DNA of 64,000 nucleotides from Cordylochernes scorpioides (taxonomy: Eukaryota; Arthropoda; Arachnida; Pseudoscorpiones; Chernetidae), in the NCBI GenBank assembly GCA_030710605.1, contig CP092872.1, positions 94,856,737-94,920,736 on the forward strand. The letters run 5' to 3'. The notes beneath the pieces were generated by a model that saw only the letters and a list, made by a program, of their open reading frames with translations, searched no databases and had not been told where the DNA came from. Positions 2,090 through 60,554 of the stretch are shown in pieces. The first letter of the stretch is position 1. Every line of letters starts with the position of its first letter. The position numbers and the translations under genes were made by a program.

Positions 2090-3066
2090 ACCCTCATTGG
2101 CAAAACTTAGAAAAGTAGAACGTCTTTGATGTCGCCGGTCGTTTTTTTTTTTTTTTTTTTTTTTAAGGAGACAGAGAGGCAATTTTGTTCACACTTGGAT
2201 ATCTCGTGTGTCTTCAATAAAGGTGGCTGTAATATCTTTCATAGTTATTGTCTGAATCCCGATATACATGCTAAGAGGAACAACTTCCTTAAGTTTTGTC
2301 CATGAGTGTATCTTTCAGATTTATTGTCTCAATCCCGATATACATGTTGAAAGGTACAACTTCCTTAAGTTATGTCCATGAGTGATTCTTTCAGAGTTAT
2401 TGTCTCAATCCCGATATACATGTTGAAAGGTACAACTTCCTTCAGTTTTGTCCATGAGTCTATCTTTCAGAGTTATTGTCTCAATCCCGATATACATGCT
2501 GAAAGGTACAACTTCCTTAAGTTTTGTCCATGAGTGTATCTTTCAGAGTTATTGTCTCAATCCCGATATACATGTTGAAAGGTACAACTTCCTTAAGTTT
2601 TGTCCATGAGTGTATCTTTCAGAGTTATTGTCTCAATCCCGATATACATGTTGAAAGGTACAACTTCCTTAAGTTTTGTCCATGAGTGTATCTTTCAGAG
2701 TTATTGTCTCAATCCCGATATACATGTTGAAAGGTACAACTTCCTTAAGTTTTATCCATGAGTGTATCTTTCAGAGTTATTGTCTCAATCCCGATATACA
2801 TGTTGAAAGGTACAACTTCCTTAAGTTTTGTCCATGAGTGTATCTTTCAGAGTTATTGTCTCAATCCCGATATACATGCTGGAAGGTAAAACTTCCTTAA
2901 GTTTTGTCCATGAGTGTATCTTTCAGAGTTATTGTCTCAATCCCGATATACATGCTGGAAGGTAAAACTTCCTTAAGTTTTGTCCATGAGTGTATCTTTC
3001 AGAGTTATTGTCTCAATCCCGTATACATGCTGAAAGGTACAACTTCCTTAAGTTTTGTCCATGAGG
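2090..3066. repeat. MITE with its 3' end amplified into eleven 76-bp units
   Basis: The left side (2090-2240) matches the MITE at 1121-1328. From 2245 the phrase TTATTGTCT recurs at 2245, 2321, 2397, 2473, 2549, 2625, 2701, 2777, 2853, 2929 and 3005, an exact 76-bp period for eleven copies. Each unit contains the MITE's right inverted end, CTTAAGTTTTGTCCATGAGT. Only the last unit loses a base. Short open frames inside it are by-products of the repeat. Confidence 0.93.
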
Positions 3067-3639
3067 GGATATGTATACTTTACTGGTTTATTTTTACTTT
3101 TTATTTTCGTATCTCTTCTTGATTCTTTGATTCCTTGATTTTTAGTAAGTCTTAAAGAACCAGTTTTTTTTTTTTTTTTTTGTCACTGAAGTACAGTTTG
3201 CATTACCCTAATGAGGGCCAACAACCAGACACACGTATTGAATATTGTCATTTTTTATTTTTTTTTATTTGAGTTTTCTGCCTAGACGACTGAAGTCAAA
3301 AGATTTTTTTGCGGTAAAGTCAACCAATCAGAAGAAAGGGACGCAGACGAAGTAAATGTAAATAGAACGCGGATGACTACATTAATTCAGACGATGAATA
3401 TTGTCATTATTTTTTTATTTGACTGTTCTGCCTAGGTGACTGAGGTCATGACCTTCGACCTGAACTGCCACCCACTCCCCAACTTCACCCTTCTTCCCCC
3501 CTCAGAATCTCACCTTCGGTAACAAGTGACATCCTTAGAAGCAAATGACCTCCCCAGACCTTTCAGTGCATAAGCCGGCGGAAACAAGTGATACACTTCT
3601 TTTATATACTTTATATATTTAAATTAAATTATAAATAAA
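3067..3639. other. Non-coding spacer with a ~55-bp direct repeat
   Basis: No gene is seen. A direct repeat (GAATATTGTCAT, T-rich tract, TTCTGCCTAG) occurs at about 3239-3298 and 3398-3449. A T(18) tract lies near 3165. Confidence 0.5.
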
Positions 3640-3716
3640 TATCTTCAGCCTTTATATTTTATTTTGAACGTTTCGGCGACTCGCTGTCGTCCTTTTCAAG
3701 CACTTTGTGTACACGC
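3640..3716 (-). repeat. Penelope-like terminal relic with hammerhead-like core
   Basis: On the minus strand the sequence reads TTGAAAAGGACGACAGCGAG and then TCGCCGAAACGTTCAA. The GAAACGT box after a hairpin, with A/T-rich flanks, matches the layout of the hammerhead-like repeats elsewhere in this window, but the CUGANGA box is degraded here. It directly abuts the U6-derived founder unit of the satellite. Confidence 0.4.
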
Positions 3717-3731
3717 TTGTTCGGCGGTACC

Positions 3732-3768
<37 letters not shown>

Positions 3769-3775
3769 GGTCCCA
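3717..3775 (+). pseudogene. U6 snRNA 5'-half fragment (founder of the satellite)
   Basis: Reading 3717-3770 gives TTGTTCGGCGGTACCTATAC, then TAAAATTGGAACGATACAGA, then GAAGATTAGCATGG. This is U6 snRNA from its 5' stem-loop through the ACAGAGA box and the AGC of the catalytic triad; about 39 consecutive bases (TATACTAAA...GCATGG) match conserved U6 as I know it. The fragment then runs into the first 66-bp unit. The U6 intramolecular stem-loop and 3' tail are missing, so this is not a functional U6 gene. Confidence 0.88.
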
Positions 3776-6700
3776 GTGATACCTGTTGGGCGGTACAACT
3801 ACTACAATAGGAAGGATACAGAGAAGATTAGCATGGCCCCTGTGATACCTGTTGGGCGGTACAACTACTACAATAGGAAGGATACAGAGAATATTAGCAT
3901 GGCCCCTGTGATACTTGTTGGGCGGTACAACTACTACAATAGGAAGGATACAGAGAATATTAGCATGGCCCCTGTGATACCTGTTGGGCGGTACAACTAC
4001 TACAATATGAAGGATACAGAGAAGATTAGCATGGCCCCTGTGATACTTGTTGGGCGGTACAACTACTACAATATGAAGGATACAGAGAAGATTAGCATGG
4101 CCCCTGTGATACTTGATGGGCGGTACAACTACTACAATAGGAAGGATACAGAGAAGATTAGCATGGTCCCTGTGATACTTGTTGGGCGGTACAACTACTA
4201 CAATAGGAAGGATACAGAGAAGATTAGCATGGCCCCTGCGTTACTTGTTGGGCGGTACAACTACTACAATAGGAAGGATACATAGGAGATTAGCATGGCC
4301 CCTGCGTTACTTGTTGGGCGGTACAACTACTACAATAGGAAGGATACATAGGAGATTAGCATGGCCCCTGCGATACTTGTTGGGCGGTACAACTACTACA
4401 ATAGGAAGGATACAGAGAAGATTAGCATGGTGCCTATGATACTTGTTGGGCGGCACAACTCCTACAATAGGAAGGATACAGAGAAGATTAGCATGGTCCC
4501 TGTTATACTTGTTGGGCGGTACAACTACTACAATAGGAAGGATACAGAGAAGATTAGCATGGTCCCTGTTATACTTGTTGGGCGGTACAACTACTACAAT
4601 AGGAAGGATACAGAGAAGATTAGCATGGTGCCTATGATACTTGTTGGGCGGTACAACAACTACAATAGGAAGGATACAGAGAAGATTAGCATGGCCTCTG
4701 TGATACTTGTTGGGCGGTACAACTACTACAATAGGAAGGATACAGAGAAGATTAGCATGGTGCCTATGATACTTGTTGGGCGGTACAACAACTACAATAG
4801 GAAGGATACAGAGAAGATTAGCATGGTCCCTGTTATACTTGTTGGGCGGTACAACTACTACAATAGGAAGGATACAGAGAAGATTAGCATGGTCCTTGTG
4901 ATAATTGTTGGGCGGTACAACTACTACAATAGGAAGGATACAGAGAAGATTAGCATGGCCCCTGCGTTACTTGTTGGGCGGTACAACTACTACAATAGGA
5001 AGGATACATAGGAGATTAGCATGGCCCCTGCGATACTTGTTGGGCGGTACAACTACTACAATAGGAAGGATACAGAGAAGATTAGCATGGCCCCTGTGAT
5101 ACTTGTTGGGCGGTACAACTACTACAATAGGAAGGATACAGAGAAGATTAGCATGGTGCCTATGATACTTGTTGGGCGGTACAACAACTACAATAGGAAG
5201 GATACAGAGAAGATTAGCATGGCCTCTGTGATACTTGTTGGGCGGTACAACTACTACAATAGGAAGGATACAGAGAAGATTAGCATGGTGCCTATGATAC
5301 TTGTTGGGCGGTACAACTACTACAATAGGAAGGATACAGAGAATATTAGCATGGTCCCTGTTATACTTGTTGGGCGGTACAACTACTACAATAAGAAGGA
5401 TACAGAGAAGATTAGCATGGTCCCTGTGATACTTGTTGGGCGGTACAACTACTACAATAGGAAGGATACAGAGAAGATTAGCATGGTGCCTATGATACTT
5501 GTTGGGCGGTACAACAACTACAATAGGAAGGATACAGAGAAGATTAGCATGGTCCCTGTTATACTTGTTGGGCGGTACAACTACTACAATAAGAAGGATA
5601 CAGAGAAGATTAGCATGGTCCCTGTGATAATTGTTGGGCGGTACAACTACTACAATAGGAAGGACACAGAGAAGATTAGCATGGTCCCTGTGATACTTGT
5701 TGGGCGGTACAACTACTACAATAGGACGGATGCAGAGAAGATTAGCATGGCCCCTGTGATACTTGTTGGGCGGTACAACTACTACAATAGGAAGGATACA
5801 GAGATGATTAGCATGGCCCCTGTGATACTTGTTGGGCGGTACAACTGCTACAATAGGAAGGATACAGAGTAGATTAGCATGGCCCCTGCGTTACTTGTTG
5901 GGCGGTACAACTACTACAATAGGAAGGATACAGAGAAGAATAACATGGTCCCTGTGATACTTGTTGGGCGGTACAACTACTACAATAGGAAGGATACAGA
6001 GATGATTAGCATGGCCCCTGTGATACTTGTTGGCCGGTACAACTACTACAATAGGAAGGATACAGAGAAGATTAGCATGGCCCCTGTGATACTAGTTGGG
6101 CGGTACAACTACTACAATAGGAAGGATACAGAGAAGAATAACATGGTCCCTGTGATACTTGTTGGGCGGTACAACTACTACAATAGGAAGGATACAGAGA
6201 TGATTAGCATGGCCCCTGTGATACTTGTTGGCCGGTACAACTACTACAATAGGAAGGATACAGAGAATATTAGCATGGCCCCTGTGATACTTGTTGGGCG
6301 GTACAACTACTACAATAGGAAGGATACAGAGAAGAATAACATGGTCCCTGTGATACTTGTTGGGCGGTACAACTGCTACAATAGGAAGGATACAGTGAAG
6401 ATTAGCATGGCCCCTGTGATACTTGTTGGCCGGTACAACTACTACAATAGGAAGGATACAGAGAATATTAGCATGGCCCCTGTGATACTTGTTGGCCGGT
6501 ACAACTACTACAATAGGAAGGATACAGAGAAGATTAGCATGGCCCCTGTGATACTAGTTGGGCGGTACAACTACTACAATAGGACGGATACAGAGAAGAT
6601 TAGCATGGCCCCTGTGATACTGGTTGGGCGGTACAACTACTTCAATAGGAAGGATACAGAGAAGATTAGCATGGCCCCTGTGATACTTGTTGGGCGGTAC

Positions 6701-7176
6701 AACTACTACAATAGGAAGGATACAGAGAAGATTAGCATGGCCCCTGTGATACTTGTAGGGCGGTACAACTACTACGATAGGAAGGATACAGAGAAAATTA
6801 GCATGGCCCCTGTGATACTGGTTGGGCGGTACAACTACTTCAATAGGAAGGATACAGAGAAGATTAGCATGGCCCCTGTGATACTTGTTGGGCGGTACAA
6901 CTACTACAATAGGAAGGATACAGAGAAAATTAGCATGGCCCCTGTGATACTGGTTGGGCGGTACAACTACTTCAATAGGAAGGATACAGAGAAGATTAGC
7001 ATGGCCCCTGTGATACTTGTAGGGCGGTACAACTACTACAATAGGAAGGATACAGAGAAAATTAGCATGGCCCCTGTGATACTGGTTGGGCGGTACAACT
7101 ACTTCAATAGGAAGGATACAGAGTAGATTAGCATGGTCTCTGTGATAGTTGTTGGGCAGTACAACTACTACTAGAT
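3717..7176. repeat. 66-bp tandem satellite derived from U6 snRNA, ~51 units
   Basis: ATTAGCATGG recurs from 3761 to 7127, a distance of 3366 bp or exactly 51 x 66 bp, so there is no net length change over 3.4 kb. Each unit carries GATACAGAGAAGATTAGCAT followed by GGCCCCTG and, before it, GGCGGTAC, collinear with U6 positions of roughly 6-68. Because 66 is divisible by three, long frames open in two plus-strand frames and one minus-strand frame (22-residue period, GRYNYYNRKDTEKISM). In-frame stops occur near 4285, 4352, 5011, 5872 and 7125. Variant units form higher-order repeats: a three-unit period near 5930-6350 and a two-unit YNYY/YNYF period near 6600-7125. I treat it as non-coding satellite. 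Confidence 0.95.
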
Positions 7177-8010
7177 ACTGCAACAACGCTGTTAGTAGAG
7201 ATGGAACACAAGGAAGTCACCCCGCGCGGCTCTCCTTCTGGAACGTCTGTTACACACAGAAGCTTAGAATTTAGACTTTATGGTCAAAAGATTTCTATAT
7301 CAACGCCGATTCCTTTTTTATTTTTCGCATTCGAGCATTTTGTAAATTTTTTATTCTATTTAATTTTTTGTAATTTGAATTAGAAACATTCAAAGCTCAC
7401 AAGAATATCTACCAACTATGACAAAGAGAAGCTCGTTAGAATTTTGTTGAAGCCAACCAATTAATGGAGCAACTCTAATCATTAACCCAAGAGAGAGACA
7501 CCAGATTCCTTTAAAACTTTACGAGAAACTTTCGCCTCACGATTTTATACATTTGAAATTATATCGCTCCTGCCGATTATCCAAACTTATTACAGAGTTT
7601 ATTCTTTAAAAAATTGGAATGAAGAAGAAAGGAAATTATTTAATCTTCAGATGTATCAATAATTAACAAAAAGCAAATTGCTTGTGATCCAGAAGAAACA
7701 ATTTGAAGTCACAGAGAAAGATAGCTAATTCTTAACTAAATTGTAATAGAAGGTGAGTTAGTCTTTCGAGCAGATATAAAAAAGAGTGTGAAGTGGCTTT
7801 CTGTAGGAATCCTAATACTGAAACATTTTAACTCACAGATATTCATGCAAATTATTCAAAGCCTATTCTTTATCTGCTTCAAATCGTTCACAGCTAATTA
7901 CTACAGATTGGCCACACTTCCTTGGCTTCCTGTTGGGCATTGTCCATATTAATTCATGAATCAAAATAAAAGACTTGAAATGAGGGGCAAAAAGGTTATT
8001 CTATATATAT
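7177..8010. other. Unannotated spacer
   Basis: AT-rich unique-looking sequence. No supported gene, RNA or inverted repeat was found. A 60-residue open frame at 7201 shows no recognisable feature. Confidence 0.4.
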
Positions 8011-8493
8011 TGTTACGACGCTTCTCAGCCGTCGATGTTTGCGTTCAAGGTTTCTAAGAGAACAATGTGGATTCTTTAGGATACAGCTTAGTGCGGTATA
8101 TTTATTATACGAGCTTAAAGAGTAGATAAGTAACTATACAGTAGAAGATTGACTTGCCTTCAATGCCCGCCACTAGAGGGATCCTTCTCCGCTACCGCCT
8201 TCCCGGTCAGTCCATACGGCCACACGTTCGGAGCCCACTTCTCAGACAGACTTCTCTCCCCAGACTGCCATGTCTTCTCGGCACACACAAATCCTCGGCA
8301 GGCCGGCCAGCTTCCTTCCACTGCGGCACCAGCTGGGCTCGGCTGATCCCTTCCCCACGGCGACGCCAGCTGGACTTCCCGCTGTCTGCCACCCCCTCCT
8401 CTGGAATTTTGTCAATCAACACTTCCGAGAAGGGGCCCTTCTTCTCTTGGCGTTCCCACTTCTTCCCTGCTACTTCTCTGCTGCATCGTTTCA
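8011..8493 (-). repeat. 3' LTR of the minus-strand element
   Basis: 483 bp direct copy of 10112-10594. On the element's strand it is preceded by the purine tract GAGAAGGGGGCAG (about 8494-8506), the expected start site for plus-strand DNA synthesis. The element's long frame runs on into this LTR. Confidence 0.9.
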
Positions 8494-10036
8494 CTGCCCC
8501 CTTCTCAATCCTTTTCGTCCCGAAAAGGCTGATTTCACCAGAGGCGCTGATCGGCGGCCCTTTGATCTCCCTGACGTCTCTGGCCACATGAGGGTTGTCC
8601 GCCTCCCGGAGGCGTAGCGGCAGGGTTAACACCAACCCTTGTTTGCAGAACCACATCTCAACTCGGGCTTTCTTTCCACTCTCAACCAGTGCCGACGCCA
8701 TTGATTGGTCTCGCTGTCTAGCACAGGGCGGTGGTTCTCCACAAGATGGCGGCCATATTTCACTGCCTACGATGCTTCCATCTGATATTTTGAATTCTCC
8801 TTGTGAACACACTGTAGCCGCAATGTACAAAGGGTTGTGATCGTTTGTGTTGCGCTTTCGCCGCTTCCTTCCACGACGGGGCTGTAGATCGCCGATCTTT
8901 ACAGTGGATTCGTCCACCTGATCCACGCTGTCCATATCGTGGCCTCCCTTTTCTTCTTTAGGTTTCCCATTCTCTTGCTCTAGAGGCTCTCTCTTTCCAA
9001 ACCCTTCAAACCTAGGCTCCTTAGTGCCGACCACGCACAGGGCTGTGAATTTCTTAAACCTTCTGGAGGTGTCGGATCCCGTGGCAGTCTCAAGGTCGGT
9101 AGAACTTTTCCTAGACGGTGGCTGCTTGATCTGCACCTTGTCGGGCGAAGGAACGAAGATGAATGGTACACATTCTTGGCACATCTCTTCAGCTTGCATT
9201 GCAGACGACGGCACTGACACATTGCGCGCGACTTCCGCGTCACAGACATTGTCGTCGGACTTCCACAGAGCGTCCAATGCTCTATCCCGTTCAGTCGGGT
9301 TGCCGGCTCCAACTTCAGGGTGCTTCGACCATCTAGCCTTGTCGCACTTCCACGGAGCATCCAGCTCCGTCCCGTCCAGTTGGATTGCCGCTGTAGTCCC
9401 TGACAGTCTGACACTGTCGCTGAAGTCAGCCACGCTGTCGCACTGCAGCTCGCCAAGATCGTTGCTGTTCTCATGGAGTATTTCAGAAAGAATCCCAGGG
9501 GTTGAATTTTCGCTCTGTATATCACCTTGAGGGCATTCTCCTTCCGTCCGCTTGATTTTATACAAAACACTCGTGCCACAGCCGTTGTCGGAGGCGATCA
9601 GCTCACCCTCCTCCGCTACACAACCAGTCTGGATCATTTCCTGCTGTCGACACTCTTCGGACTTCTGGATCATGGGAGAATCTTCTAGCGTAGATTCTGG
9701 CTGTTCACTTACAACGTCTCCTGACGTGATGATCTTTGTTGTGATGGTCTTGTCGGGATCTTCATTACCTGGGACCGTCTTTTGTCCCCTCAGACATTGA
9801 ATACGTGGGCTATTGGTTGCTGTGATTGTTTTTGAAAAGCCATCAGGATTTTCTGGCGGTAGTACATTGAACTTAACTTCGCAAGACATGGGTGTGGCAG
9901 AACGTTTGACATTCCGAATATGCTCGAGTCGGCTCAACCGAGAATCCAAGTTTTCTCCGAGCTCATCTACTTTCTGGCTTATTAGTCTGAGCAATTTTGT
10001 GAATTTTTCAATTTCGAGGTCGGTTAGTTTTTCCAT
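8207..10036 (-). CDS. 609-residue gag-like protein of the LTR element, no catalytic domains
   Basis: The frame is open further upstream, but its first 12 codons begin with TTG; the first ATG is at 10036 in the good context AAAAATGG, giving 609 residues. The N-terminus (MEKLTDLEIEKFTKLLRLIS, then a further heptad-like stretch) looks like a coiled coil, as in many gag leaders. The middle is acidic and Ser/Thr-rich with an imperfect internal duplication (ELDAPWKCD versus ALDALWKSD). A basic patch (RRGRKRRKR) follows. I see no CCHC zinc knuckle, protease D-S/T-G or RT motif. The last roughly 95 codons lie inside the 3' LTR. It probably serves packaging or is passively maintained; no function can be assigned from homology. 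Confidence 0.6.
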   Translation of the reverse strand: MEKLTDLEIEKFTKLLRLISQKVDELGENLDSRLSRLEHIRNVKRSATPMSCEVKFNVLPPENPDGFSKTITATNSPRIQCLRGQKTVPGNEDPDKTITTKIITSGDVVSEQPESTLEDSPMIQKSEECRQQEMIQTGCVAEEGELIASDNGCGTSVLYKIKRTEGECPQGDIQSENSTPGILSEILHENSNDLGELQCDSVADFSDSVRLSGTTAAIQLDGTELDAPWKCDKARWSKHPEVGAGNPTERDRALDALWKSDDNVCDAEVARNVSVPSSAMQAEEMCQECVPFIFVPSPDKVQIKQPPSRKSSTDLETATGSDTSRRFKKFTALCVVGTKEPRFEGFGKREPLEQENGKPKEEKGGHDMDSVDQVDESTVKIGDLQPRRGRKRRKRNTNDHNPLYIAATVCSQGEFKISDGSIVGSEIWPPSCGEPPPCARQRDQSMASALVESGKKARVEMWFCKQGLVLTLPLRLREADNPHVARDVREIKGPPISASGEISLFGTKRIEKGAVKRCSREVAGKKWERQEKKGPFSEVLIDKIPEEGVADSGKSSWRRRGEGISRAQLVPQWKEAGRPAEDLCVPRRHGSLGREVCLRSGLRTCGRMD

Positions 10037-10091
10037 TTTTCTTTTTAAATTGGCGCAAAATAAAATCTTCAATTAAAATTAACTAAGCTGT

Positions 10092-10109
10092 ATCCCACTT
10101 CTGACACCA
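10092..10109 (-). promoter_or_regulatory. Primer binding site for tRNA-Leu
   Basis: The minus strand reads TGGTGTCAGAAGTGGGAT, two bases inside the 5' LTR. It is complementary to the 3' end of a eukaryotic tRNA-Leu including CCA, with one mismatch by my recollection (17 of 18). Confidence 0.8.
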
Positions 10110-10111
10110 AA

Positions 10112-10594
10112 TGTTACGACGCTTCTCAGCCGTCGATGTTTGCGTTCAAGGTTTCTAAGAGAACAATGTGGATTCTTTAGGATACAGCTTAGTGCGGTAT
10201 ATTTATTATACGAGCTTAAAGAGTAGATAAGTAACTATACAGTAGAAGATTGACTTGCCTTCAATGCCCGCCACTAGAGGGATCCTTCTCCGCTACCGCC
10301 TTCCCGGTCAGTCCATACGGCCACACGTTCGGAGCCCACTTCTCAGACAGACTTCTCTCCCCAGACTGCCATGTCTTCTCGGCACACACAAATCCTCGGC
10401 AGGCCGGCCAGCTTCCTTCCACTGCGGCACCAGCTGGGCTCGGCTGATCCCTTCCCCACGGCGACGCCAGCTGGACTTCCCGCTGTCTGCCACCCCCTCC
10501 TCTGGAATTTTGTCAATCAACACTTCCGAGAAGGGGCCCTTCTTCTCTTGGCGTTCCCACTTCTTCCCTGCTACTTCTCTGCTGCATCGTTTCA
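10112..10594 (-). repeat. 5' LTR of the minus-strand element
   Basis: 483 bp, starting TG and ending CA, with no difference seen from the copy at 8011-8493. Flanked outside by ATAT and inside by the tRNA-Leu primer site. Confidence 0.9.
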
Positions 10595-11139
10595 ATATTA
10601 TAACAGCAAACTATTGCAAAACTTTGCAAGAAACTTTTTGTCTAACGATTTTGTACTTTTGAAAGTAAACTCTGTATCTAATGAATAATTAAATGTGCCT
10701 AGAATTCTGTAATGTTGACCTTTTTCATAAATTGACTGTCTCAGCCCTCTTGGCGCTTGTTCTGAAGCTTTCGTTAGGGTAACATTGTCTTTTTGAATTG
10801 CATTTTTTTTCACAATTTATTTTCTACAGGTAGAAAGGGAGACACAATTGTCATATTACACATATTTTGAATATAAAAAAAAATGAAAAGCACGATTTTT
10901 TTAATTCAAATAAATGAATTTCTTACTGTCCTTATATTTCAACAAAAAAAAATGTATACAAGGAGTGTTATATATTTTACAGTTTCTAATAAATTTTGTC
11001 GACTTTCTTACCTTAGAGCATGAATTCTATATATGTAATCTATTTTGGGTTCAAACATTAAGATAGGTGACATTGTGTATGGTTTTTCATTGACTTTCTC
11101 TTCTATAGAGAATAAACTTTAATTTAGAAACTATTATAT
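10595..11139. other. Spacer between two LTR elements
   Basis: AT-rich DNA without a supported gene. The short open frames here show no recognisable domain. Confidence 0.4.
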
Positions 11140-13221: not shown

Positions 13222-13739
13222 ATATTGCATAAATCGCAGAGAGAGAACTATTGTATGTGCAGAGGTTCTGCTTTGTTGCGCTCTCTTATATAAAATTATT
13301 TTAAATGTACTATTTTTTTAATAGTCAGATATCTTTAAATTCAATACCTCTTGATATAGTTAGAATAAAAGTTCTTATTTTGAAGTATTTTGTGTTGTAT
13401 TAAGTCCCTAGACATTTAATATGCCTATTAATGGCATGAGTCATGAGGAATGCTAATGCTTTCATTTTATATTTTTGTTGTCATTAAAATTTATATTATT
13501 GAATGTAATATTTCCGTGAATTCAGGCTTAGGCTAAGAAATTTTCAATTTTAAATTCTTTTAAAGTTAAAATTATTGTCTTATTTTAAATGCATTGCAAT
13601 TAAGCTCGTTATCAGATTTTTCAAAATAACATTTAATATAGGTTGTTTCACAAATATTGTCAGAAGTGCGTTCTTTTCTCAAATAAGGGATTTATCCACC
13701 GCGACAATGTGTTTAATTATATTATTAATAATAAAATAA
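13222..13739. other. Spacer, AT-rich
   Basis: No gene, RNA or repeat was recognised. Confidence 0.35.
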
Positions 13740-14227
13740 TTAAAAGAGAAAACAAAAATATAACGTGGTGAGTTTCTTTTTATTAAAAATACAAGCTTTC
13801 AAGCAAAATGCTTTTCTTCAGGTAATCCAAGAAAAAATATGTGGAGAGGTAAATACACCCAACTAAGTAAGATTTGAAAATTAAAGCGGAATTGCCACGA
13901 ACAAGCACGTATCAACACACCTAGAGAGCGAGCGAGAAATTCAGTTTAAAATAAGTTTAAAATAAATAAAATATATACATAAATCGGGAAAACACTTGAG
14001 GTTAAAATTCCTTATGCGGGGTCCATGCTATTACAAAAAGCTATGTACTGCGGGGGTAGTTCTATTTTTCTATTGAGGCTTGGAATTTTATTGGAAACCA
14101 AAGCCTCCAGGACCAGTCGTTGATATTTTCCGCTTATGTTACTGTAAATACATTGGGTGCTGTGAAATCAAATGAATGCTGTGTTTCTGCCATGTGCTGA
14201 TAAATCTGGGAACGGCTGTCTTTGTTC

Positions 14228-14536
14228 AAAATTAAATGCTCAAATTGCGAACTACATTATGTTGGTGAAACCGGCAGAACCATAGAAATCAGGACTAAAG
14301 AACACAATAGAAACATCATGAACAAAGACAGCCGTTCCCAGATTTATCAGCACATGGCAGAAACACAGCATTCATTTGATTTCACAGACACCCAATGTAT
14401 TTACAGTAACATAAGCGGAAAATATCAACGACTGGTCCTGGAGGCTTTGGTTTCCAATAAAATTCCAAGCCTCAATAGAAAAATAGAACTACCCCCGCAG
14501 TACATAGCTTTTTGTAATAGCATGGACCCCGCATAA
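14228..14536 (+). pseudogene. GIY-YIG endonuclease domain of a Penelope-like element
   Basis: The frame encodes FKIKCSNCELHYVGETGRTI, then R-x(3)-EH and H-x(6)-H-like spacing. This is the C-x2-C / YVGETGR / R-x3-EH pattern of Penelope-like GIY-YIG nucleases, with a downstream glutamate in LVLEALVSNK. In complete elements this domain nicks target DNA at the C-terminus of the reverse transcriptase. The open frame begins with TTG at 14222 and lacks the upstream polymerase, so it is a fragment. The left arm encodes the same protein on the minus strand without its first ~30 residues. Confidence 0.83.
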
Positions 14537-14709
14537 GGAATTTTAACCTCAAGTGTTTTCCCGATTAAGGTATATATTTTATTTATTTTAAACTTATTTT
14601 AAACTGAATTTCTCGCTCGCTCTCTAGGTGTGTTGATACGTGCTTGTTCGTGGCAATTCCGCTTTAATTTTCAAATCTTACTTAGTTGGGTGTATTTACC
14701 TCTCCGCAT

Positions 14710-14775
14710 ATTTTTTCTTGGATTACCTGAAGAAAAGCATTTTGCTAGAAAGCTTGTATTTTTAATAAAAAGAAA
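14710..14775 (+). ncRNA. Hammerhead-ribozyme-like motif (Penelope tail)
   Basis: GGATTAC is followed by CTGAAGA, a short hairpin AAGC-ATTTT-GCT(A/T), GAAA and GCTTGTATTTT. TAC before the first box pairs with GTA after the last. The inverted copy at 13790-13845 has perfect AAGC/GCTT pairing; here one base differs. Layout fits a type I hammerhead with a very short helix III. Confidence 0.5.
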
Positions 14776-14808
14776 CTCACCACGTTATATTTTCGTTTTC
14801 TCTTTTAA

Positions 14809-15221
14809 CTTTTAAAACGTGGCTAAAGTATGCCTGATCCTAATAAAATAATTATCACATAGTTACTCTATACATTCAATCCAAGGCTTCTTAGAGATAG
14901 AAATCGCTAAATAATAATAATAAAATATTTTATGTTCGTGTATATACAATAAAATAATAAATTAAAATAAATATATAAACAATATATAACAGATCTAAAA
15001 TATTTATATAAATAAACTAGAATATATTGAAAAATATTATAAATAAAAAGAGTTGAAGAGTGAGGTGAAATTTGTTCTTCTTTGTTTTTTTAGAAATTTG
15101 ATATTTGACCAAATTTATATTGCATTTAATACATATACAAAGTTTACAAACTTAACATAACGTCCATTTATTTTAAAAAAGGGTATCGTTTCATTTTGTT
15201 ATAATGTCATAATCCATTATT
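14809..15221. other. AT-rich region upstream of the zinc-finger gene
   Basis: Low-complexity A/T tracts; presumably contains the 5' UTR or promoter of the gene at 15222, but no specific element is identifiable. Confidence 0.35.
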
Positions 15222-24594: not shown

Positions 24595-25345
24595 TTTCAG
24601 CTGAAACACTCCTCATGACTTGTCCTGACATGACAGAACCTCTGATAAGAGACAACTTCCAGGAGAGGCCATGTTTATTTATATGTTTAGGCTGTGGTCT
24701 CTCATCAGAGATTCTGTTTCAGTTGAAACACTCCTCATGACTTGTCCTGACATGACAGAACCTCTGATAAGAGACAACTTCCAGGAGAGGCCATGTTTAT
24801 TTATGTTTCTAGGCTGTGGTCTCTCATCAGAGATTCTGTTTCAGTTGAAACACTCCTCATGACTTGTCCTGACATGACAGAACCTCTGATAAGAGACAAC
24901 TTCCAGGAGAGGCCATGTTTATTTATGTTTTTAGGCTGTGGTCTCTCATCAGGGATTCTGTTTCAGTTGAAACACTCCTCATGACTTGTCCTGACATGAC
25001 AGAACCTCTGATAAGAGACCACTTCCAGGAGAGGCCATGTTTATTTATGTGTTGTATAGGCTGTGGTCTCTCATCAGAGATTCTGTGTCAGTTGAAACAC
25101 TCCTCATGACTTGTCCTGACATGACAGAACCTCTGATAAGAGACAACTTCCAGGAGAGGCCATGTTTATTTATGTTTTTAGGCTGTGGTCTCTCATCAGA
25201 GATTCTGTGTCAGTTGAAAGACTCCTCATGACTTGGCCTGACATGATTGATTCTGATGAGAGACAACTTCCAGGAGAGACCATTTTTAGCCATGTTTCTA
25301 GGCTATGGACTCTCATGGGAGACACTACTGTATTCTCTCACTATG
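24595..25345. repeat. 122-bp tandem repeat, five to six copies
   Basis: Units start around AACACTCCTCATGACTTGTC and include GGAGAGGCCATGTTTATTTA. Spacing is 122, 122, 122 and 125 bp (one TTG-type insertion near 25055). The last unit (25230-25345) is diverged. Short open frames starting in each unit are by-products. Confidence 0.92.
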
Positions 25346-26180: not shown

Positions 26181-26415
26181 CCAGGCACAAAAAAAGAAAA
26201 ACTACACAAATCTCATTTATAATACAATATAATGTCAATATAATATAATGCGGCTTATGATTGTAAAACAACATTTGAAATACTATCCCGCATGTGTTTC
26301 TTTTCAACGAAAAATCAAAATTTATTTCACGGAGAAATAACGATTATTTCTAACCTTTTGGATGAGGTATGAAAGGATGAATTGTGAAGAGTAATGATAA
26401 ACAGAAAAATAAAAG

Positions 26416-26490
26416 TGTCCAGGGATGGGAATCGAACCCACAGTATTCTGCTTACCGGACAGATGCCATGTCCACTAGGCTACCCTGGAC
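26416..26490 (-). tRNA. tRNA-like sequence, anticodon GGT (Thr) if real
   Basis: Acceptor GTCCAGG pairs fully with CCTGGAC; T arm GTGGG-TTCGATT-CCCAT; anticodon stem TCTGT/GCAGA with loop CCGGTAA. Position 33 is C instead of U and the D arm is loose, so it is probably a tRNA-derived repeat or pseudogene. A weak T-run follows on its strand. Confidence 0.45.
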
Positions 26491-26507
26491 ATATAACGGA
26501 AAAATAT

Positions 26508-26582
26508 GTCCAGGGTAGCTTAGTGGACATGGTATCTGCCATGTAAGCAGAACATTGTGAGTTTGATTCCCATCCCTGGACA
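26508..26582 (+). tRNA. tRNA-like sequence, diverged inverted copy
   Basis: Same acceptor (GTCCAGG/CCTGGAC) and anticodon stem (TCTGC/GCAGA), but loop CATGTAA and T arm GTGAG-TTTGATT-CCCAT are altered; box B is weakened. Likely pseudogene. Confidence 0.35.
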
Positions 26583-26959
26583 CTTTTATTTTTTATGTTT
26601 ATCATTACTTTTTACAAATCTCATTCTCTGATTCATGGTGATTCATCAGTTTCTTTTTGTTACACAACTTAAGGATAATCTAACATCCTGTGTGTGCTTG
26701 AAACTTACAAACTTTTACTATTTATATTTATAGGGGAGATTGTGTGTGTGTATGCTTTATTATTAAAATAAATCCTTTCAAAGAATTCTATATACAGTTA
26801 CGAGCGTCATTCCTCATCTCCTAATCAACTCTGTCACCGTTTGCTTTTTTTTGGAATGGCGCCCTCCTATTGGTTGGCTACTATCACGCCACCTTTGCCC
26901 CCCCCCCCATCATGCCTCCCCCACTCGCTTTTTCGTTTTTGTAACTATTGTGTTGGAGC

Positions 26960-29359: not shown

Positions 29360-32300
29360 CAGTAGAACCTCCATGTAAAGGACAACACCTAATTACAGAG
29401 CCAAAGTGTCCTTTAGAGAGAGGTATCCTCTTACTGGAGAGTTATTAAATAGTAAAAATGGTATTATTGGCGTTGAAAACTGTCCTTTATAAAGAGGTGT
29501 CTTATATCGTGAGTGTCCTCTCATGGAGGTTCTATTGTAGAGAGGTGTCCTCTCATGGAGGTTCTACTGTAGAGAAGTGTCCTATAGCGGGAGTGTCCTC
29601 TCATGGAAGTTCTACTGTAGAGAGGTATCTTCTTATGGAGGTTCTACTGTAGAGAGGTGTCCCATAGCGGGAGTGTCCTCTCATGGAAGTTCTACTGTAG
29701 AGAGGTATCTTCTTATGGAGGTTCTATTGTAGAGAGGTGTCCTCTAGCGGGAGTGTCCTCTCATGGAGGTTCTACTGTAGAGAGGTATCTTCTTATGGAG
29801 GTTCTACTGTAGAGAGGTGTCCTCTAGCGGGAGTGTCCTCTCATGGAGGTTCTACTGTAGAGAGGTGTCCTATAGCGGGAGTGTCCTCTCATGGAGGTTC
29901 TACTGTAGAGAGGTGTCCTCTAGCGGGAGTGTCCTCTCATGGAGGTTCTACTGTAGAGAGGTGTCCTATAGCGGGAGTGTCCTCTCATGGGGGTTTTACT
30001 GTAGAGAAGTGTCCTATAGCGGGAGTGTCCTCTCATGGAGGTTCTACTGTAGAGAGGTGTCCTCTAGCGTGAGTGTCCTCTCATGGAAGTTCTACTGTAG
30101 AGAGGTATCTTCTTATGGAGGTTCTACTGTAGAGAGGTGTCCTCTAGCGTGAGTGTCCTCTCATGGAAGTTCTACTGTAGAGAGGTATCTTCTTATGGAG
30201 GTTCTACTGTAGAGAGGTGTCCTCTAGCGTGAGTGTCCTCTCATGGAAGTTCTACTGTAGAGAGGTATCTTCTTATGGAGGTTCTACTGTAGAGAGGTGT
30301 CCTCTAGCGGGAGTGTCCTCTCATGGAAGTTCTACTGTAGAGAGGTATCTTCTTATGGAGGTTCTATTGTAGAGAGGTGTCCTCTAGCGGGAGTGTCCTC
30401 TCATGGAAGTTCTACTGTAGAGAGGTATCTTCTTATGGAGGTTCTATTGTAGAGAGGTGTCCTCTAGCGGGAGTGTCCTCTCATGGAGGTTCTACTGTAG
30501 AGAGGTGTCCTATAGCGGGAGTGTCCTCTCATGGAGGTTCTACTGTAGAGAGGTATCTTCTTATGGAGGTTCTATTGTAGAGAGGTGTCCTCTAGCGGGA
30601 GTGTCCTCTCATGGAAGTTCTACTGTAGAGAGGTATCTTCTTATGGAGGTTCTATTGTAGAGAGGTGTCCTCTAGCGGGAGTGTCCTCTCATGGAGGTTC
30701 TACTGTAGAGAGGTGTCCTATAGCGGGAGTGGCCTCTCATGGAGGTTCTACTGTAGAGAGGTATCTTCTTATGGAGGTTCTATTGTAGAGAGGTGTCCTC
30801 TAGCGGGAGTGTCCTCTCATGGGGGTTTTACTGTAGAGAAGTGTCCTATAGCGGGAGTGTCCTCTCATGGAGGTTCTACTGTAGAGAGGTGTCTTCTTAT
30901 GGAGGTTCTATTGTAGAGAGGTGTCCTCTAGCGGGAGTGTCCTCTCATGGAGGTTCTACTGTAGAGAGGTGTCCTCTAGCGGGAGTGTCCTCTCATGGAA
31001 GTTCTACTGTAGAGAGGTATCTTCTTATGAAGGTTCTACTGTAGAGAGGTGTCCTCTAGCGTGAGTGTCCTCTCATGGAAGTTCTACTGTAGAGAGGTAT
31101 CTTCTTATGGAGGTTCTACTGTAGAGAGGTGTCCTCTAGCGTGAGTGTCCTCTCATGGGGGTTTTACTGTAGAGAAGTGTCCTATAGCGGGAGTGTCCTC
31201 TCATGGAAGTTCTACTGTAGAGAGGTATCTTCTTATGGAGGTTCTACTGTAGAGAGGTGTCCTCTAGCGTGAGTGTCCTCTCATGGAGGTTCTATTGTAG
31301 AGAGGTATCTTCTTATGGAGGTTCTACTGTAGAGAGGTGTCCTCTAGCGTGAGTGTCCTCTCATGGAAGTTCTACTGTAGAGAGGTATCTTCTTATGGAG
31401 GTTCTACTGTAGAGAGGTGTCCTCTAGCGGGAGTGTCCTCTCATGGAAGTTCTACTGTAGAGAGGTATCTTCTTATGGAGGTTCTATTGTAGAGAGGTGT
31501 CCTCTAGCGGGAGTGTCCTCTCATGGAAGTTCTACTGTAGAGAGGTATCTTCTTATGGAGGTTCTATTGTAGAGAGGTGTCCTCTAGCGGGAGTGTCCTC
31601 TCATGGAGGTTCTACTGTAGAGAAGTGTCCTATAGCGAGAGTGTCCTCTCATGGAAGTTCTACTGTAGAGAGGTATCTTCTTATGGAGGTTCTATTGTAG
31701 AGAGGTGTCCTCTAGCGGGAGTGTCCTCTCATGGAGGTTCTACTGTAGAGAGGTGTCCTATAGCGGGAGTGTCCTCTCATGGAAGTTCTACTGTAGAGAG
31801 GTATCTTCTTATGGAGGTTCTACTGTAGAGAGGTGTCCTCTAGCGGGAGTGTCCTCTCATGGAGGTTCTACTGTAGAGAGGTGTCCTATAGCGGGAGTGT
31901 CCTCTCATGGAAGTTCTACTGTAGAGAGGTATCTTCTTATGGAGGTTCTATTGTAGAGAGGTGTCCTCTAGCGGGAGTGTCCTCTCATGGAGGTTCTACT
32001 GTAGAGAGGTGTCCTATAGCGGGAGTGTCCTCTCATGGAAGTTCTACTGTAGAGAGGTATCTTCTTATGGAGGTTCTACTGTAGAGAGGTGTCCTCTAGC
32101 GTGAGTGTCCTCTCATGGGGGTTTTACTGTAGAGAGGTGTCTTATAGCGCAAGTGTCTTCTCATGGAGGTTCTACTGTAGAGAGGTGTCCTCTAGCGTGA
32201 GTGTCCTCTCATGGAGGTTTTACTGTAGAGAGGTGTCTTCTTATAGAGGTTCTACTGTAGAGAGGTGTCTTATAGCGCAAGTGTCTTCTCATGGAGGTTC

Positions 32301-32387
32301 TACTGTGAGAGGTGTCTTCTTATGGAGGTTCTACTGTAGAGAAGTGTCCTATAGCGCCAGTGTCCTCTCATGGAGGTTGTTCTACTG
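29360..32387. repeat. MITE whose right end is amplified into a 48/32-bp higher-order array
   Basis: The left end at 29360 (CAGTAGAACCTCCATG) and interior match the dispersed MITE. From about 29510 the right end, CATGGAGGTTCTACTGTAGA, is repeated in a 48-bp unit (GTGTCCTCTAGCGGGAGTGT core) and a 32-bp unit (GTATCTTCTTATGG core). They alternate mainly as 48+32 = 80 bp and 48+48+32 = 128 bp blocks to 32387, where the inverse terminus TTCTACTG is flanked by TA. Open frames in it (GSVLSWRFYCREVS-type) merely follow the period. Confidence 0.93.
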
Positions 32388-39675: not shown

Positions 39676-40214
39676 AGTGAGCTTGTTACTGCTTCCCCTC
39701 CTCCTTTTTCATCCGGGCTTGGGACCGGCAAGGGCGGAGTTCATTTATGTAGTTGAAGGTTTAAATTTCTTTACGGAAATTTGTGGTACATCTCTTCGTA
39801 ATGTATTCTGTGAATCCCAATTTTTAGTTTTTTTTTAAATACTCGGTACCTTGTAGGTTATTGACATCTTGTGTGGTAATACCTAGATAAACATAAGTAA
39901 AGTGTGTTCTATTGATGCGATGGTAGTTAGCGTTCTGCGCTCCAGGAAGTTAGGTTATAAATATCTCTGTCTAGCTGTATATAATTATCGCCTTCATAGG
40001 TTCCAAACAGCCACCTTCCTAGGAATAAGCATATTTTCCCCTGAAGATCTGTGCAGAACATTCGCAACATCAGCCTGGCGATATCTGATAAACTGGATAT
40101 CCACCATTAGACGTGTCAACCCGGATGGCTGGTGACTTTGGAACGTGGTGGTTCCAGGAATCCCGGTTATATCAAGAGTGAGAGAATTTTTGCTTTGATA
40201 ATTGTTATTGTCGT
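39676..40214. other. Unannotated spacer
   Basis: No supported gene. The edge near 40190 (TTTGATAATTGTTATTGTC) resembles the far edge of the 107-bp array near 42740 in reverse, which may be a remnant of its parent. Confidence 0.3.
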
Positions 40215-42725
40215 GTCCAATGAAGGGCCTCAGATGTCTCCATACATCTCTATCACAGCAGTTGTTCTATATCTTGGGTGTGTAAAGTTCTTGGTCCAAG
40301 TCAATTTTCTGTTGTTGTCGTTTCCAACGAAGAGCCTGGGATGTCTCCATACATCTCTATCACAGCAATGTTCTCTATCTTGGGTGTGTAAAGTTCTGGG
40401 CCATGTCAATTTTCTGTTGTTATCGTGTCCAATGAAGAGCCTCAGATGTCTCCGTACATCTCTATCACAGCAGTCGTTCTCTATCTTGGGTGTGTAAAGT
40501 TCTGGGTCCATGTCAATTTTCTGTTGTTGTCGTGTCCAATGAAGAGCCTGGGATGTCTCCATACATCTCTATCACAGCAGTCGTTCTCTATCTTGGGTGT
40601 GTAAAGTTCTGGTCCATGTCAAATTTCTGTTGTTGTCGTGTCCAATGAAGAGCCTGGGATGTCTCCATACATCTCTATCACAGCAGTCGTTCTCTATCTT
40701 GGGTGTGTAAAGTTCTGAGTCCATGTTAATTTTCTGTTGTTGTCGTGTCCAATGAAGAGCCTCAGATGTCTCCATACATCTCTATCACAGCAGTCGTTCT
40801 CTATCTTGGGTGTGTAAAGTTCTGGGTCCATGTCAATTTTCTGTTGTTGTCGTGTCCAATGAAGAGCCTCAGATGTCTCCATACATCTCTATCACAGCAG
40901 TCGTTCTCTATCTTGGGTGTGTAAAGTTCTGGGTCCATGTCAATTTTCTGTTGTTGTCGTGTCCAATGAAGAGCCTCAGATGTCTCCGTACATCTCTATC
41001 ACAGCAGTTGTTCTCTATCTTGGGTGTGTAAAGTTCTGGGTCCATGTCAATTTTCTGTTGTTGTCGTGTCCAATGAAGAGCCTCAGATGTCTCCATACAT
41101 CTCTATCACAGCAGTTGTTCTCTATCTTGGGTGTGTAAATTCTGGGTCCATGTCAATTTTCTGTTGTTGTTGTGTCCAATGAAGAGCCTCAGATGTCTCC
41201 ATACATCTCTATCACAGCAGTTGTTCTCTATCTTGGATGTGTAAAGTTCTGGGTCCATGCCAATTTTCTGTTGTTGTCGTGTCCAATGAAGAGCCTCAGA
41301 TGTCTCCATACATCTCTATCACAGCAGTTGTTCTCTATCTTGGGTGTGTAAATTCTGGGTCCATGTCAATTTTCTGTTGTTGTTGTGTCCAATGAAGAGC
41401 CTCAGATGTCTCCATACATCTCTATCACAGCAGTTGTTCTCTATCTTGGGTGTGTAAAGTTCTGGGTCCATGCCAATTTTCTGTTGTTGTCATGTCCAAC
41501 GAAGAGCCTGGGATGTATCCATGCATCTCTATCACAGCAGTTGTTCTCTATCTTGGGTGTGTAAATTTCTGGATCCATGTCAATTTTCTGTTGTTGTCAT
41601 GTCCAACGAAGAGCCTGGGATGTATCCATGCATCTCTATCACAGCAGTTGTTCTCTATCTTGGGTGTGTAAAGTTCTGGGTCCATGTCAATTTTCTGTTG
41701 TTGTTGTCGTGTCCAATGAAGAGCCTCAGATGTCTCCATACATCTCTATCACAGCAGTCGTTCTCTATCTTGGGTGTGTAAAGTTCTGGATCCATGTCAA
41801 TTTTCTGTTGTTGTCATGTCCAACGAAGAGCCTCAGATATCTCCATACATCTCTATCTCAGCAGTCGTTCTCTATCTTGGGTGTGTAAAGTTCTGGGTCC
41901 ATGTCAAATTTCTGTTGTTGTCGTTTCCAATGAAGAGCCTCAGATGTTTCCATACATCTCTATCACAGCAGTCATTTTCTATCTTGGGTGTGTAAAGTTC
42001 TGGGTCCATGCCAATTTTCTGTTGCTGTCATGTCCAACGAAGAGCCTCAGATGTCTCCATACATCTCTATCTCAGCAGTCGTTCTCTATCTTGGGTGTGT
42101 AAAGTTCTGGGTCCATGTCAATTTTCTGTTGTTGTCGTTTCCAATGAAGAGCCTCAGATGTCTCCATGCATCTCTATCACAGCAGTTGTTCTCTATCTTT
42201 GGTGTGTAAATTTCTGGGTCAATGTCAATTTTCTGTTGTTGTCATGTCCAACGAAGAGCCTCAGATGTCTCCATACATCTCTATCTCAGCAGTCGTTCTC
42301 TATCTTGGGTGTGTAAAGTTTTGGGTCCATGTCAATTTTCTGTTGTTGTCGTTTCCAATGAAGAGCCTCAGATGTCTCCGTACATCTCTATCATAGCAGT
42401 TGTTCTCTATCTTGGGTGTGTAAAGTTCTGGATCCATGTCAATTTTCTGTTGTTGTCGTTTCCAATGAAGAGCCTCAGATGTCTCCGTACATCTCTATCA
42501 CAGCAGTTGTTCTCTATCTTGGGTGTGTAAATTTCTGGGTCCATGTCAATTTTCTGTTGTTGTTGTCATGTCCAACAAGAGCCTGGGATGTCTCCATACA
42601 TCTCTATCACAGCAGTTGTTCTGTATCTTTGGTGTGTAAATTTCTGGATCCATGTCAATTTTCTGTTGTTGTCGTGTCCAATGAAGAGCCTCAGATGTCT
42701 CCGTACATCTCTATCACAGCAGTAG
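40215..42725. repeat. 107-bp tandem array, ~23-24 copies
   Basis: GTGTGTAAAGTTCTGGGTCC recurs with period 107; the first and last GTGTAAA marks are 2354 bp apart (22 x 107) despite a few 1-3 bp indels (for example near 41125, 41390 and 41700). Unit phrases: CAATTTTCTGTTGTTGTCGT, CCAATGAAGAGCCTCAGATG, CATACATCTCTATCACAGCA. Because 107 is not divisible by three, the many short frames on both strands shift from unit to unit and are not genes. Confidence 0.94.
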
Positions 42726-43584: not shown

Positions 43585-44329
43585 CTAGACGAATGGCCCG
43601 GGCAACGCCCGGGTTTTACCCGAGTGCGTATATATTTTTAAAACGTTTTAATTAAAATACTATTCGTTACAATTATAAATTGGCGCCGTGGATGTCTCTC
43701 TTGTGAAACGTCCCGCCCCAAACTGTGTGTGTCTTGAAAATATAAAAATAAAAATGTGAATTTTCATAAAGATTTCATCATGTCGATTTTTTTTTTTTGC
43801 ATTTCACCTACTAAATCGATAGAGATAATTACATTTGCAACATGAACTTAGGTATATTGACTAAATAGAAAACAGCATAGTAATAAAGATCATTTTTTAA
43901 AGGCACCATATCGGTTTTTTTTTTCAATAAAATCGAAACAAAAATTAACGATAAATAACGATAATTGCCTTAAAAAGAAATTGCCTTAAAAAAAATAAAC
44001 ATTCGCGGTGATTTTGTCTTGCATTCGTTTATACAATTATTATATACGAATGACCCGGGCAACGCCCGGGTTTTACCCGATTAAATGCTTTTATTCAAAT
44101 ACTATTCGTTACAATTATAAATTGGCGCCGTGGATGTCATTCTTGTATAATATATAAATGAGTTTTAAAAATTGTAAAAAAAAAAATGCATCGGCCGGGA
44201 ATCGAACCCGGGCCGCCCGCGTGGCAGGCGAGCATTCTACCACTGAACCACCGATGGTTATGAAAAATCCCATCCGTGAGCTTCAGACAGACAAACAAAC
44301 AGACAGAATAAGGCAAATATATAAGTAGA
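43585..44329 (-). mobile_element. Non-autonomous Helitron carrying a tRNA-Gly
   Basis: On the minus strand it starts A|TCTACTTATATATTTGCC and ends with CCCGGGCGTTGCCCGGG and then CCATTCGTCTAG|T, the Helitron 5' TC, 3' hairpin and CTAG with insertion between A and T. A second, internal 3'-end-like hairpin lies at about 44045-44085. No Rep/helicase is encoded. The 5' segment contains tRNA-Gly(GCC) at 44187-44257. A near copy, tRNA included, is at 52463-53278. Confidence 0.8.
44187..44257 (-). tRNA. tRNA-Gly (anticodon GCC), Helitron-borne
   Basis: 71 nt. D arm with box A TGGTTCAGTGG, anticodon arm CTCGC-CTGCCAC-GCGGG-like with GCC, T arm GGTTCGATTCC (box B) and acceptor CCATCGG/CCGATGC. The first base is C instead of G, leaving a C-C mismatch at 1:72; the rest of the cloverleaf is sound. 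A T(10) run follows as a pol III terminator. Possibly transcribed; maturation is doubtful because of the 1:72 mismatch. Confidence 0.75.
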
Positions 44330-48244: not shown

Positions 48245-49405
48245 TTATGAAAGTTTCTTCACTTTCTTGTATAAGTCATCCACAACTTTTTCCATACTTT
48301 GAATGGTCTCAATGGTCATGTCGTAGGTTTCGTCTTTTATGGATTCCTCCAAGATTATTAAGACTCCATCGCTCTGGTCCAGGATTCCAGTGATCTTGCG
48401 GTCCAGGATCATTTGTGAGAGTTTCCGCTCCACGGTGCTTAGTGGTAGGTTGATGATGTCTGCAATATGAGCTACCTGTATCTTGGAATAGGCCTCGATG
48501 ATCCGGCAGAGATTCTGTTCCAGCATGTTGTCGTAGAGGGCATCCAGGTGGCTGTGTATGATTGGATCATCTACCAGCTCTTGCTTGTATTGGTCCAGGG
48601 TGTTCTGGAGATCTGCTAGAGATCGCTTGCTGCTAGCTTTTGCAATGGCCTTCATGGCTTCCACATCACGTCCTGCGTAGTTCAAAGCAAGTTTACCCAT
48701 TGTGATAGAATAGACATCTTCTGGGGTGTTCAACATGATCTTGGAGAGCAGCATGTATTTGAGGGCATTAATTGCTTGAGGACAGTTATCTGAATCAAAA
48801 CTCTCAAATGCCTCGTAGAAATAGGAATAAGCGACTTTGTAGTCTTTCTCAGTGGCGTGTAGGATTCCGGATTGTAGATCCAGCGATCCTTGTAGTTTGG
48901 GAGGGCAGTAGATGGCATTAGCTGCCGTTCTGGCAGAAGTGAGGGATGCACGACACTTGGGTAGATTGCTCAGGCTGTGGTATATTTTACTTTCTACCAA
49001 TTCAACTTCCACTAGCAAATGTTTATCATCCATTCTCTTGAGTTCTTTCAGCAAACTTCCAGTCAACTGAAGAGCTTCCGAATATTTCTGGGCATCATAG
49101 TAAACACTAGCTAACCTGATCTCAAGAGATTGGCGTAGTAAAGTACGTTTCTCCATTTTGGCCCATTCAATGCAATCTTTACAGAGCTCAGCCTCGTGGC
49201 CAGTAGAGGCATCCATGTCGAGATACAGGTCAACTAAGGTACGTACAAGTTTAGCTGCTTTGGCCTTACTTACTAAGCTGAGAAAAGGTCGTGTGGACCT
49301 AATGAGAGCTTCAAGTTCTTCAGCATTACCTGAACTGCTCAATTCCTGCGCCATTTGAAGAATCTTCTGCTCCTTAATAGCCACGTCATCTTTCTGGTGA
49401 TCCAT
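48245..49405 (-). CDS. PSMD11: 26S proteasome regulatory subunit Rpn6 (PSMD11), intronless, N-terminally short
   Basis: 386 residues; animal PSMD11 is about 420. Start ATG 49405 with an in-frame TAA about 25 bp upstream. Rpn6 is a lid scaffold that clamps the 19S regulatory particle to the 20S core. Residues ~1-185 match its helical-repeat arm ([44 protein letters not shown]), ~187-355 the PCI domain ([60 protein letters not shown]) and the end the bundle-forming C-terminal helix ([20 protein letters not shown]). About 33-36 N-terminal residues are missing relative to the usual protein, and ATEKDYK is one residue shorter than the usual AEEKDWK-type loop. No introns and a poly(A) tract downstream suggest a 5'-truncated retrocopy that has stayed open; a true gene with an unseen first exon is the alternative. 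Confidence 0.9.
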
Positions 49406-50186: not shown

Positions 50187-50235
50187 TAGATATATATTTT
50201 TCTAAACAGAATATATAGAACGAGGATGCAAAATA

Positions 50236-50500
50236 CACTCATGGACAAAACTTAAGGAAGTTGTACCTTTTTAGCATGTATATCGGGATTGAGACAATAA
50301 CTCTGAAAGATATTACAGTGACCTTTATTGAAGACACACGAGCTAACCAATATACACTCATGAACAAAACTTAAGGAAGTTGTACCTTTTTAGCATGTAT
50401 ATCGGGATTGAGACAATAACTCTGAAAGATATTACAGTGACCTTTATTGAAGACACACGAGCTAACCAATATACATTCTCATAGGAATACCTGTCCGGGA
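50236..50500 (-). repeat. Tandem pair of MITE units of the 76-bp family
   Basis: CACTCATGGACAAAACTTAA and its surroundings occur at about 50237 and 50355 (period about 118), each with GCATGTATATCGGGATTGAG. Same element family as 1121-1328 and 2090-3066 in opposite orientation. Confidence 0.8.
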
Positions 50501-60072: not shown

Positions 60073-60138
60073 TTTTGGCACATGAAGATGATCTTCCTTT
60101 TATACCTTTACACCGTAAATAGACTATTCATGAATTCC

Positions 60139-60485: not shown

Positions 60486-60554
60486 AACTGTGTACTATAT
60501 TTTTCAATACTATAATCCAACTGTTTAACCAAATCCCAACCAACACAACTACTC

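Follow-up and report, generated by a model that had tools for sequence, protein, structure and literature searches.

Satellites derived from tRNA and 5S genes are known, and U6 snRNA is transcribed by RNA polymerase III from an external promoter. A U6-derived repeat of primates is said, going by the title, to be the subject of Hasnaoui et al. 2009, and Kojima 2015 reportedly describes SINEs with snRNA-derived heads, again going by the title. Small-RNA origins of repeats, including a proposed origin of alpha satellite from a snoRNA, are discussed in the available part of PMC4233971. U6 retropseudogenes and chimeras occur in mammals (PMC4476161 and PMC13174262, excerpts), and in U6/LINE-1 chimeras the U6 is consistently full-length at its 5' end (PMC13174262, excerpt); the word "tandem" has no occurrence in the main text of PMC4476161. 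SINE heads may come from snRNA, SINEs being dispersed retroposons that often have a LINE-derived 3' part (PMC7245038, excerpt). In grasshoppers U6 has been counted among the tandem multigene families, with the whole U6 gene as search seed (PMC7754599, excerpt), and in a midge U6 and minisatellites were treated separately (PMC4192438, excerpt). The available parts of PMC5635008 and PMC6947457 contain nothing on U6-derived satellites. A sequence-only reading of the locus studied here had named satellites derived from tRNA, 5S and U2 but none built from a U6 fragment; in line with this, none was recognised in the open-licence literature, among the matches listed and in the portions of text that these provide.

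The window analysed is a stretch of 64,000 nucleotides (64 kb) from Cordylochernes scorpioides (Pseudoscorpiones, Chernetidae), whose features are collected in Table 1. We consider it highly probable that its 66-bp array descends from U6 and is neutral or selfish DNA with no role in splicing; we read it as one block of a dispersed satellite family of a pseudoscorpion-like arachnid.

Table 1. Features of the 64-kb window, in order of position
Feature	Position	Strand	Evidence or description
76-bp tandem array	2233-3065		11 copies; related sequence at 1254-1327 and 50227-50475
Left-edge, founder-like unit (unit 1)	3709-3781	+	U6 nucleotide 1 to about 62, then junction common to units
66-bp U6-derived tandem array	3716-7171	+	TRF, motif scan, 48 Rfam U6 matches, unit table
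ACAGAGA...AGC segment of unit 1	3748-3770	+	Recurs every 66 bases to 7114-7136
Apparent young LTR-type element	8011-10667		Exact repeat of 290 bases or more at 8011 and 10112; a 621-codon minus-strand frame (8207-10072) adjoins and overlaps this repeat
Large palindrome	13735-14813		425-nt arms, 98% complementary, 229-nt gap
Further long tandem array	24595-25316		Unit about 122 bp; TRF
Two tRNA-Thr genes	26405-26593		Anticodons ggt and tgt, head to head; inverted repeat of 90 nt (90% complementary) with a 9-nt gap
Further long tandem array	29493-32378		Units about 32/80/128 bp; TRF
Further long tandem array	40203-42723		Unit about 107 bp; TRF
tRNA-Gly (gcc)	44187-44257	-	Rfam score equal to that of the second tRNA-Gly
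Two overlapping frames	44986-46667	+	Resemble a broken hAT/ZBED-type transposase (by eye)
26S proteasome subunit 11 (Rpn6) gene	48248-49399	-	Intact, intronless
tRNA-Gly (gcc)	53140-53210	-	Rfam score equal to that of the first tRNA-Gly
Further long tandem array	56542-60073		Unit about 86 bp; TRF
Separate full-length U6 copy, comparator outside the array	60386-60495	-	Rfam 78.5 bits, model 1-105
Further long tandem array	62058-62837		Unit about 196 bp; TRF

U6 descent of the 66-bp array

Tandem Repeats Finder (TRF) returned the locus as one array of period 66, with 52.4 copies, 94% matches and 0% indels, and it comprises 52 whole units of exactly 66 bp (3716-7147) followed by a partial unit of 24 bases (7148-7171). 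The constant unit length and head-to-tail order are those of a satellite or minisatellite; strictly it is a minisatellite, because it extends over 3.5 kb. The sequence-only reading had described about 50 tandem copies of a U6 segment after the first unit, within 3717 to 7176. The copies and the general location were correct, whereas the U6 match starts at 3709 and the array ends at 7171.

The units descend from U6. The Rfam U6 model (RF00026) matched 3709-3774 (model positions 1-61, 50.9 bits) and 12 further places in the array above its gathering score, and at E values of up to 0.01 there were 48 matches between 3600 and 7300, all to U6 and all on the plus strand. Every one of these alignments starts at model position 1 and 47 of the 48 end at positions 61-69 of 105; one match (3977-4075) covers the whole model by running on into the next unit. 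Alignment of the units to U6, which had been proposed as a check, therefore reaches far past the ACAGAGA box, the covariance-model matches extending from position 1 to at least 61, and the U6 stretches that had been quoted for the first unit are located in it. A 23-base U6 segment, GGATACAGAGAAGATTAGCATGG, occurs 53 times in the 64-kb window with up to 3 mismatches, as compared with 0.00 expected (100 shuffles); 52 of these occurrences lie at 3748-7136 with a spacing of exactly 66 bases, and the 53rd lies on the minus strand, at 60434. The ACAGAGA box is exact in 45 of the 52 units and is accompanied by TTAGCATGG in 42, while the exact 19-base ACAGAGAAGATTAGCATGG is present in 31.

The later units lack the GTACACG of the U6 5' arm, and their first aligned bases (AUAC) are junction sequence; hence, we infer that a unit consists of about U6 nucleotides 7-63 together with a junction that is only a few bases long. 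The suggestion that it represents the "catalytic half" of U6 is partly accurate: the ACAGAGA and AGC sites are present, but the segment corresponds to the 5' three fifths of the RNA and lacks the internal stem-loop, the 3' tail and presumably also U4/U6 stem II.

With 13 matches above the gathering threshold, the array could be mistaken for a cluster of real U6 genes, and that one array can yield so many matches above a curated threshold is a practical warning for U6 scans. This reading is refuted by the unit length and we regard it as practically impossible: all but one of the matches stop at about three fifths of the model, and the 3' half, a spacer and a terminator are absent. No TTTT terminator was found within the array and no TATA-like sequence was seen by eye about 30 bases upstream of unit 1. 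The array does not have the attributes of a functional U6 gene, namely full length, the internal stem-loop, stem II and a U-rich 3' end.

The left-edge unit and the growth of the array

Unit 1 is U6 from nucleotide 1 (3709) through GGUCCC and is in register with unit 2 and the rest of the array, with the same junction (unit table). The left-edge match, which might have been a separate insertion unrelated to the units, is instead unit 1 of the array. Over 55 positions, the second U6 copy (60386-60495) has 5 mismatches to unit 1 and 9 to the array consensus. Between unit 1 and the consensus of units 2-51 there are differences at 9 of 66 positions; at six of these (7, 17, 18, 24, 28 and 33) U6 agrees with unit 1 and at three (16, 60 and 56) with the array consensus, the U6 state being that of the second U6 copy or, for positions 33 and 56, of the Rfam consensus only. 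This split, not strong alone, is suggestive of a place for unit 1 nearer to U6. On these comparisons, unit 1 is the relic with the fewest changes; it is not the direct parent of the other units, because it has three changes of its own. The proposal that the first unit founded the array is partly borne out, in that unit 1 shares the register of the array, extends to U6 nucleotide 1 and resembles U6 more than the consensus does, but the array was not simply born from this unit, a mutated unit probably having predated it.

The second U6 copy is probably a retropseudogene. The 8-base word AAAAATAT occurs near both of its ends and is a possible target duplication, albeit a weak one in AT-rich DNA. 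Homology between unit 1 and this copy (3709-3770 with 60495-60434) begins at U6 position 1 in both, and upstream of that position 12 of 40 bases are identical. A 5' end at U6 nucleotide 1 with unrelated sequence upstream, as found for unit 1, is what would be expected of copies made from RNA. Around the array no convincing target-site duplication was found, the longest shared words being of 9 bases (TTTTATTTT) and 7 bases and of low complexity. The U6 3' half was not found on the right flank in four local-alignment tests (scores 14 to 19, with 324 to 830 of 1,000 shuffles as good), and the unit consensus aligned with 7172-7240 no better than did 492 of 1,000 shuffles. The sequence CAAGGA at 7209, a candidate for a hidden U6 3' half at the right edge, was discarded as its alignment was no better than those of shuffles. 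These two negative results count against a retrocopy origin, which for the founder is a presumed step.

We propose the following course of events. The founder would have been a U6 snRNA copy, probably generated by reverse transcription, of which about nucleotides 7 to 63 would have been duplicated head to tail; the resulting unit may have acquired a few fixed changes and then spread to several chromosomes, with arrays growing via unequal exchange or replication slippage. Satellite growth is usually by unequal exchange or slippage. The retrocopy origin, the mode of spread and the mode of growth are each what we infer for this repeat. The order of the units is weak evidence for local exchange: the observed correlation of unit similarity with distance was reached by 288 of 2,000 shuffles, and the longest identical block was of 3 units, as compared with up to 4 in shuffles. 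In the last third of the array (units 35-51), units three apart are the most similar (2.36 differences versus 3.50 between neighbours), which is a hint of a higher-order repeat. For the array as a whole a higher-order repeat was rejected, as it contains two multi-unit blocks that recur exactly, compared with a mean of 0.5 and a maximum of 3 in shuffles.

Relatives, constraint and surroundings

A translation of 5873-7126 was used as a query against 5.8 billion proteins, of which the 7,999 candidates with the most shared words were scored. Four proteins matched at E values of up to 0.001, all of them from C. scorpioides, and these come from four contigs (75.9, 208, 90.4 and 104.7 Mb). P0121 has 12 repeats by anchor pattern, such as RRYNYYNRNDTEKISMAPVIPV, with ten spacings of 22 residues and one of 23; P0122 has 3 (spacings of 22 and 22 residues), P0123 has 4 (spacings of 22, 19 and 19) and P0124 has 4, each of 22 residues and partly in another frame. 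As far as the translations show, these repeats share the derived changes of the array around AACTACTACAATAGG, while many of their units retain the U6 state at positions 7 and 33. The shared changes point to a common mutated unit that would be older than the array at 3716-7171, which appears to carry further changes of its own. Hence, the U6 repeat is probably a dispersed family that predates this array, with repeats in proteins from four contigs and with relatives known as predicted proteins alone. A search for the unit beyond the array, as the sequence-only reading had advised, was thus rewarded at the protein level. The exact repeat pattern was absent from viral contigs (0) and from prokaryote contigs (0), in collections that possibly exclude the source genome of the window. 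A protein search with the reverse-strand frame gave only four weak matches (26-36% identity, one from Solanum commersonii), which are taken as chance. The absence of indels from 52 units is a greater regularity than one might expect of a neutral array; the 19-residue units of P0123 are a counterexample.

The C. scorpioides annotation implies a further reading, in which the array is a protein-coding gene made of repeats of 22 residues. As 66 bases make 22 codons, one frame of the array is open, and the longest open stretch is of 417 codons; the opposite strand, however, is open for up to 307 codons too, and the sequence is explained by its match to U6. Among units 2-51 (units 1 and 52 being omitted from the constraint counts), the open frame has 25 replacement, 8 silent and 2 stop changes versus 148, 41 and 9 possible ones, and of the 30 variable sites 10 are at codon position 1, 13 at position 2 and 7 at position 3. 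A stop interrupts the frame in 6 of all 52 units. These changes fall as they would without coding constraint, and a coding role, which we rejected on this ground and for the stops, is extremely improbable. Such arrays nevertheless enter databases as parts of proteins, for example as C. scorpioides "TBX10".

The gene models of P0121 and P0123 combine the repeats with domains of host genes (T-box and transporter, respectively), so that some arrays may sit in transcribed introns. It could be argued that the array is functional, its transcribed repeats base-pairing, as U6-like decoys, with 5' splice sites or U2, and the number of units that keep ACAGAGA, with or without TTAGCATGG, is consistent with this. 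We consider such a function very improbable. Within units 2-51, the ACAGAGA/AGC segment is variable at 9 of its 23 sites, as against 13 of 32 sites for the 5' part and 8 of 11 for the junction; as the segment varies like the 5' part, it is not specially kept. The U6 5' stem (GUAC...GUAC) forms in unit 1, where 117 of 200 shuffles fold as stably, and is absent from the one later unit that was folded (6686-6751, in two extents), for which 196 of 200 shuffles were as stable each time. The missing TATA-like sequence, TTTT, internal stem-loop and 3' tail also argue against decoys. Just as improbable is a scenario in which the U6 repeat, spreading through genomes of pseudoscorpions, comes to lie in introns of genes such as TBX10 and an SLC6-type transporter and, once transcribed in the pre-mRNA, presents dozens of ACAGAGA/AGC segments to the spliceosome, affecting the splicing of the host introns.

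The dispersal of the repeat could also be due to a mobile element that captured U6, the array being an internal variable-number repeat of this element, in the manner of the VNTR of SVA elements or of U6/LINE chimeras; the element, rather than a satellite, would then have spread. This explanation accepts U6 descent as ours does and overlaps with it to that extent. It would account for the occurrence of the repeats on four C. scorpioides contigs. P0122 has PF01498 and PF13358, which we take to be transposase domains, beside its repeat, the start of P0121 is transposase-like by eye, and the adjacent 76-bp array is an amplified piece of a repeat that is also present outside arrays. However, the fusion of repeats to transposases and host genes in gene models may be an artefact of the annotation, a target duplication around the array was not found, and the matches of the flanks (3066-3708 and 7172-8010) to other places in the window are all short: about 60 bases inside the left flank, 50 bases at 10618, and, on the right flank from 7996, the edge of a 92-base match at 52121. 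A mobile carrier is therefore unlikely, though less so than the other alternatives, and a dispersed satellite family remains our preferred reading.

Eleven tandem arrays, picked from 45 TRF rows, cover 24.5% of the window, which indicates that segments are commonly amplified into arrays in this region; what sets the U6 array apart is its parent and not its tandem structure. The 76-bp repeat ends in GTTTTGTCCATGAGTG, which we assume to resemble a mariner/Tc1 terminal repeat. Other repeated features of the window include a large palindrome, an apparently young LTR-type element, a head-to-head pair of tRNA-Thr genes and two tRNA-Gly (gcc) genes that are perhaps a duplication. The best match of the Rpn6 gene is to C. 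scorpioides, at 74% identity, the next being at 69% or less (120 best of 3,475 matches). A tree of 16 chosen sequences grouped the two with support of 98/98 and gave the window gene a branch of 0.76 versus 0.096, suggesting that it is fast-evolving. On this gene alone the window is probably that of a pseudoscorpion, either a species distinct from C. scorpioides or C. scorpioides with a second, divergent gene copy.

Comparison with known systems

The array resembles satellites from small RNA genes in that a structured small RNA gene, or a copy of one, has become the tandem unit; the parent here is U6. With U6 retropseudogenes and U6/LINE-1 chimeras it has in common a genomic copy of U6, and U6 nucleotide 1 is the starting point of unit 1 as well as of the 60386-60495 copy, but here a part of U6 has been amplified head to tail. 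SINEs with snRNA heads likewise have an snRNA as the source of a repeat, whereas no LINE-derived 3' part was identified in this window. In grasshoppers, U6 is also listed among genomic tandem repeats, there as a gene family and not as a truncated U6 unit. The primate repeat of Hasnaoui et al. 2009, judged by its title alone, is similar in being reportedly U6-derived.

U6 thus joins the small RNAs that are able to seed satellite DNA. As the parent sequence is known, the array provides a well-defined case of satellite birth, in which changes can be ordered from those of the edge unit, through those shared with C. scorpioides proteins, to those specific to the array. In comparison with the systems above, the U6 repeat is a real satellite family whose parent is new and whose mechanism is ordinary.
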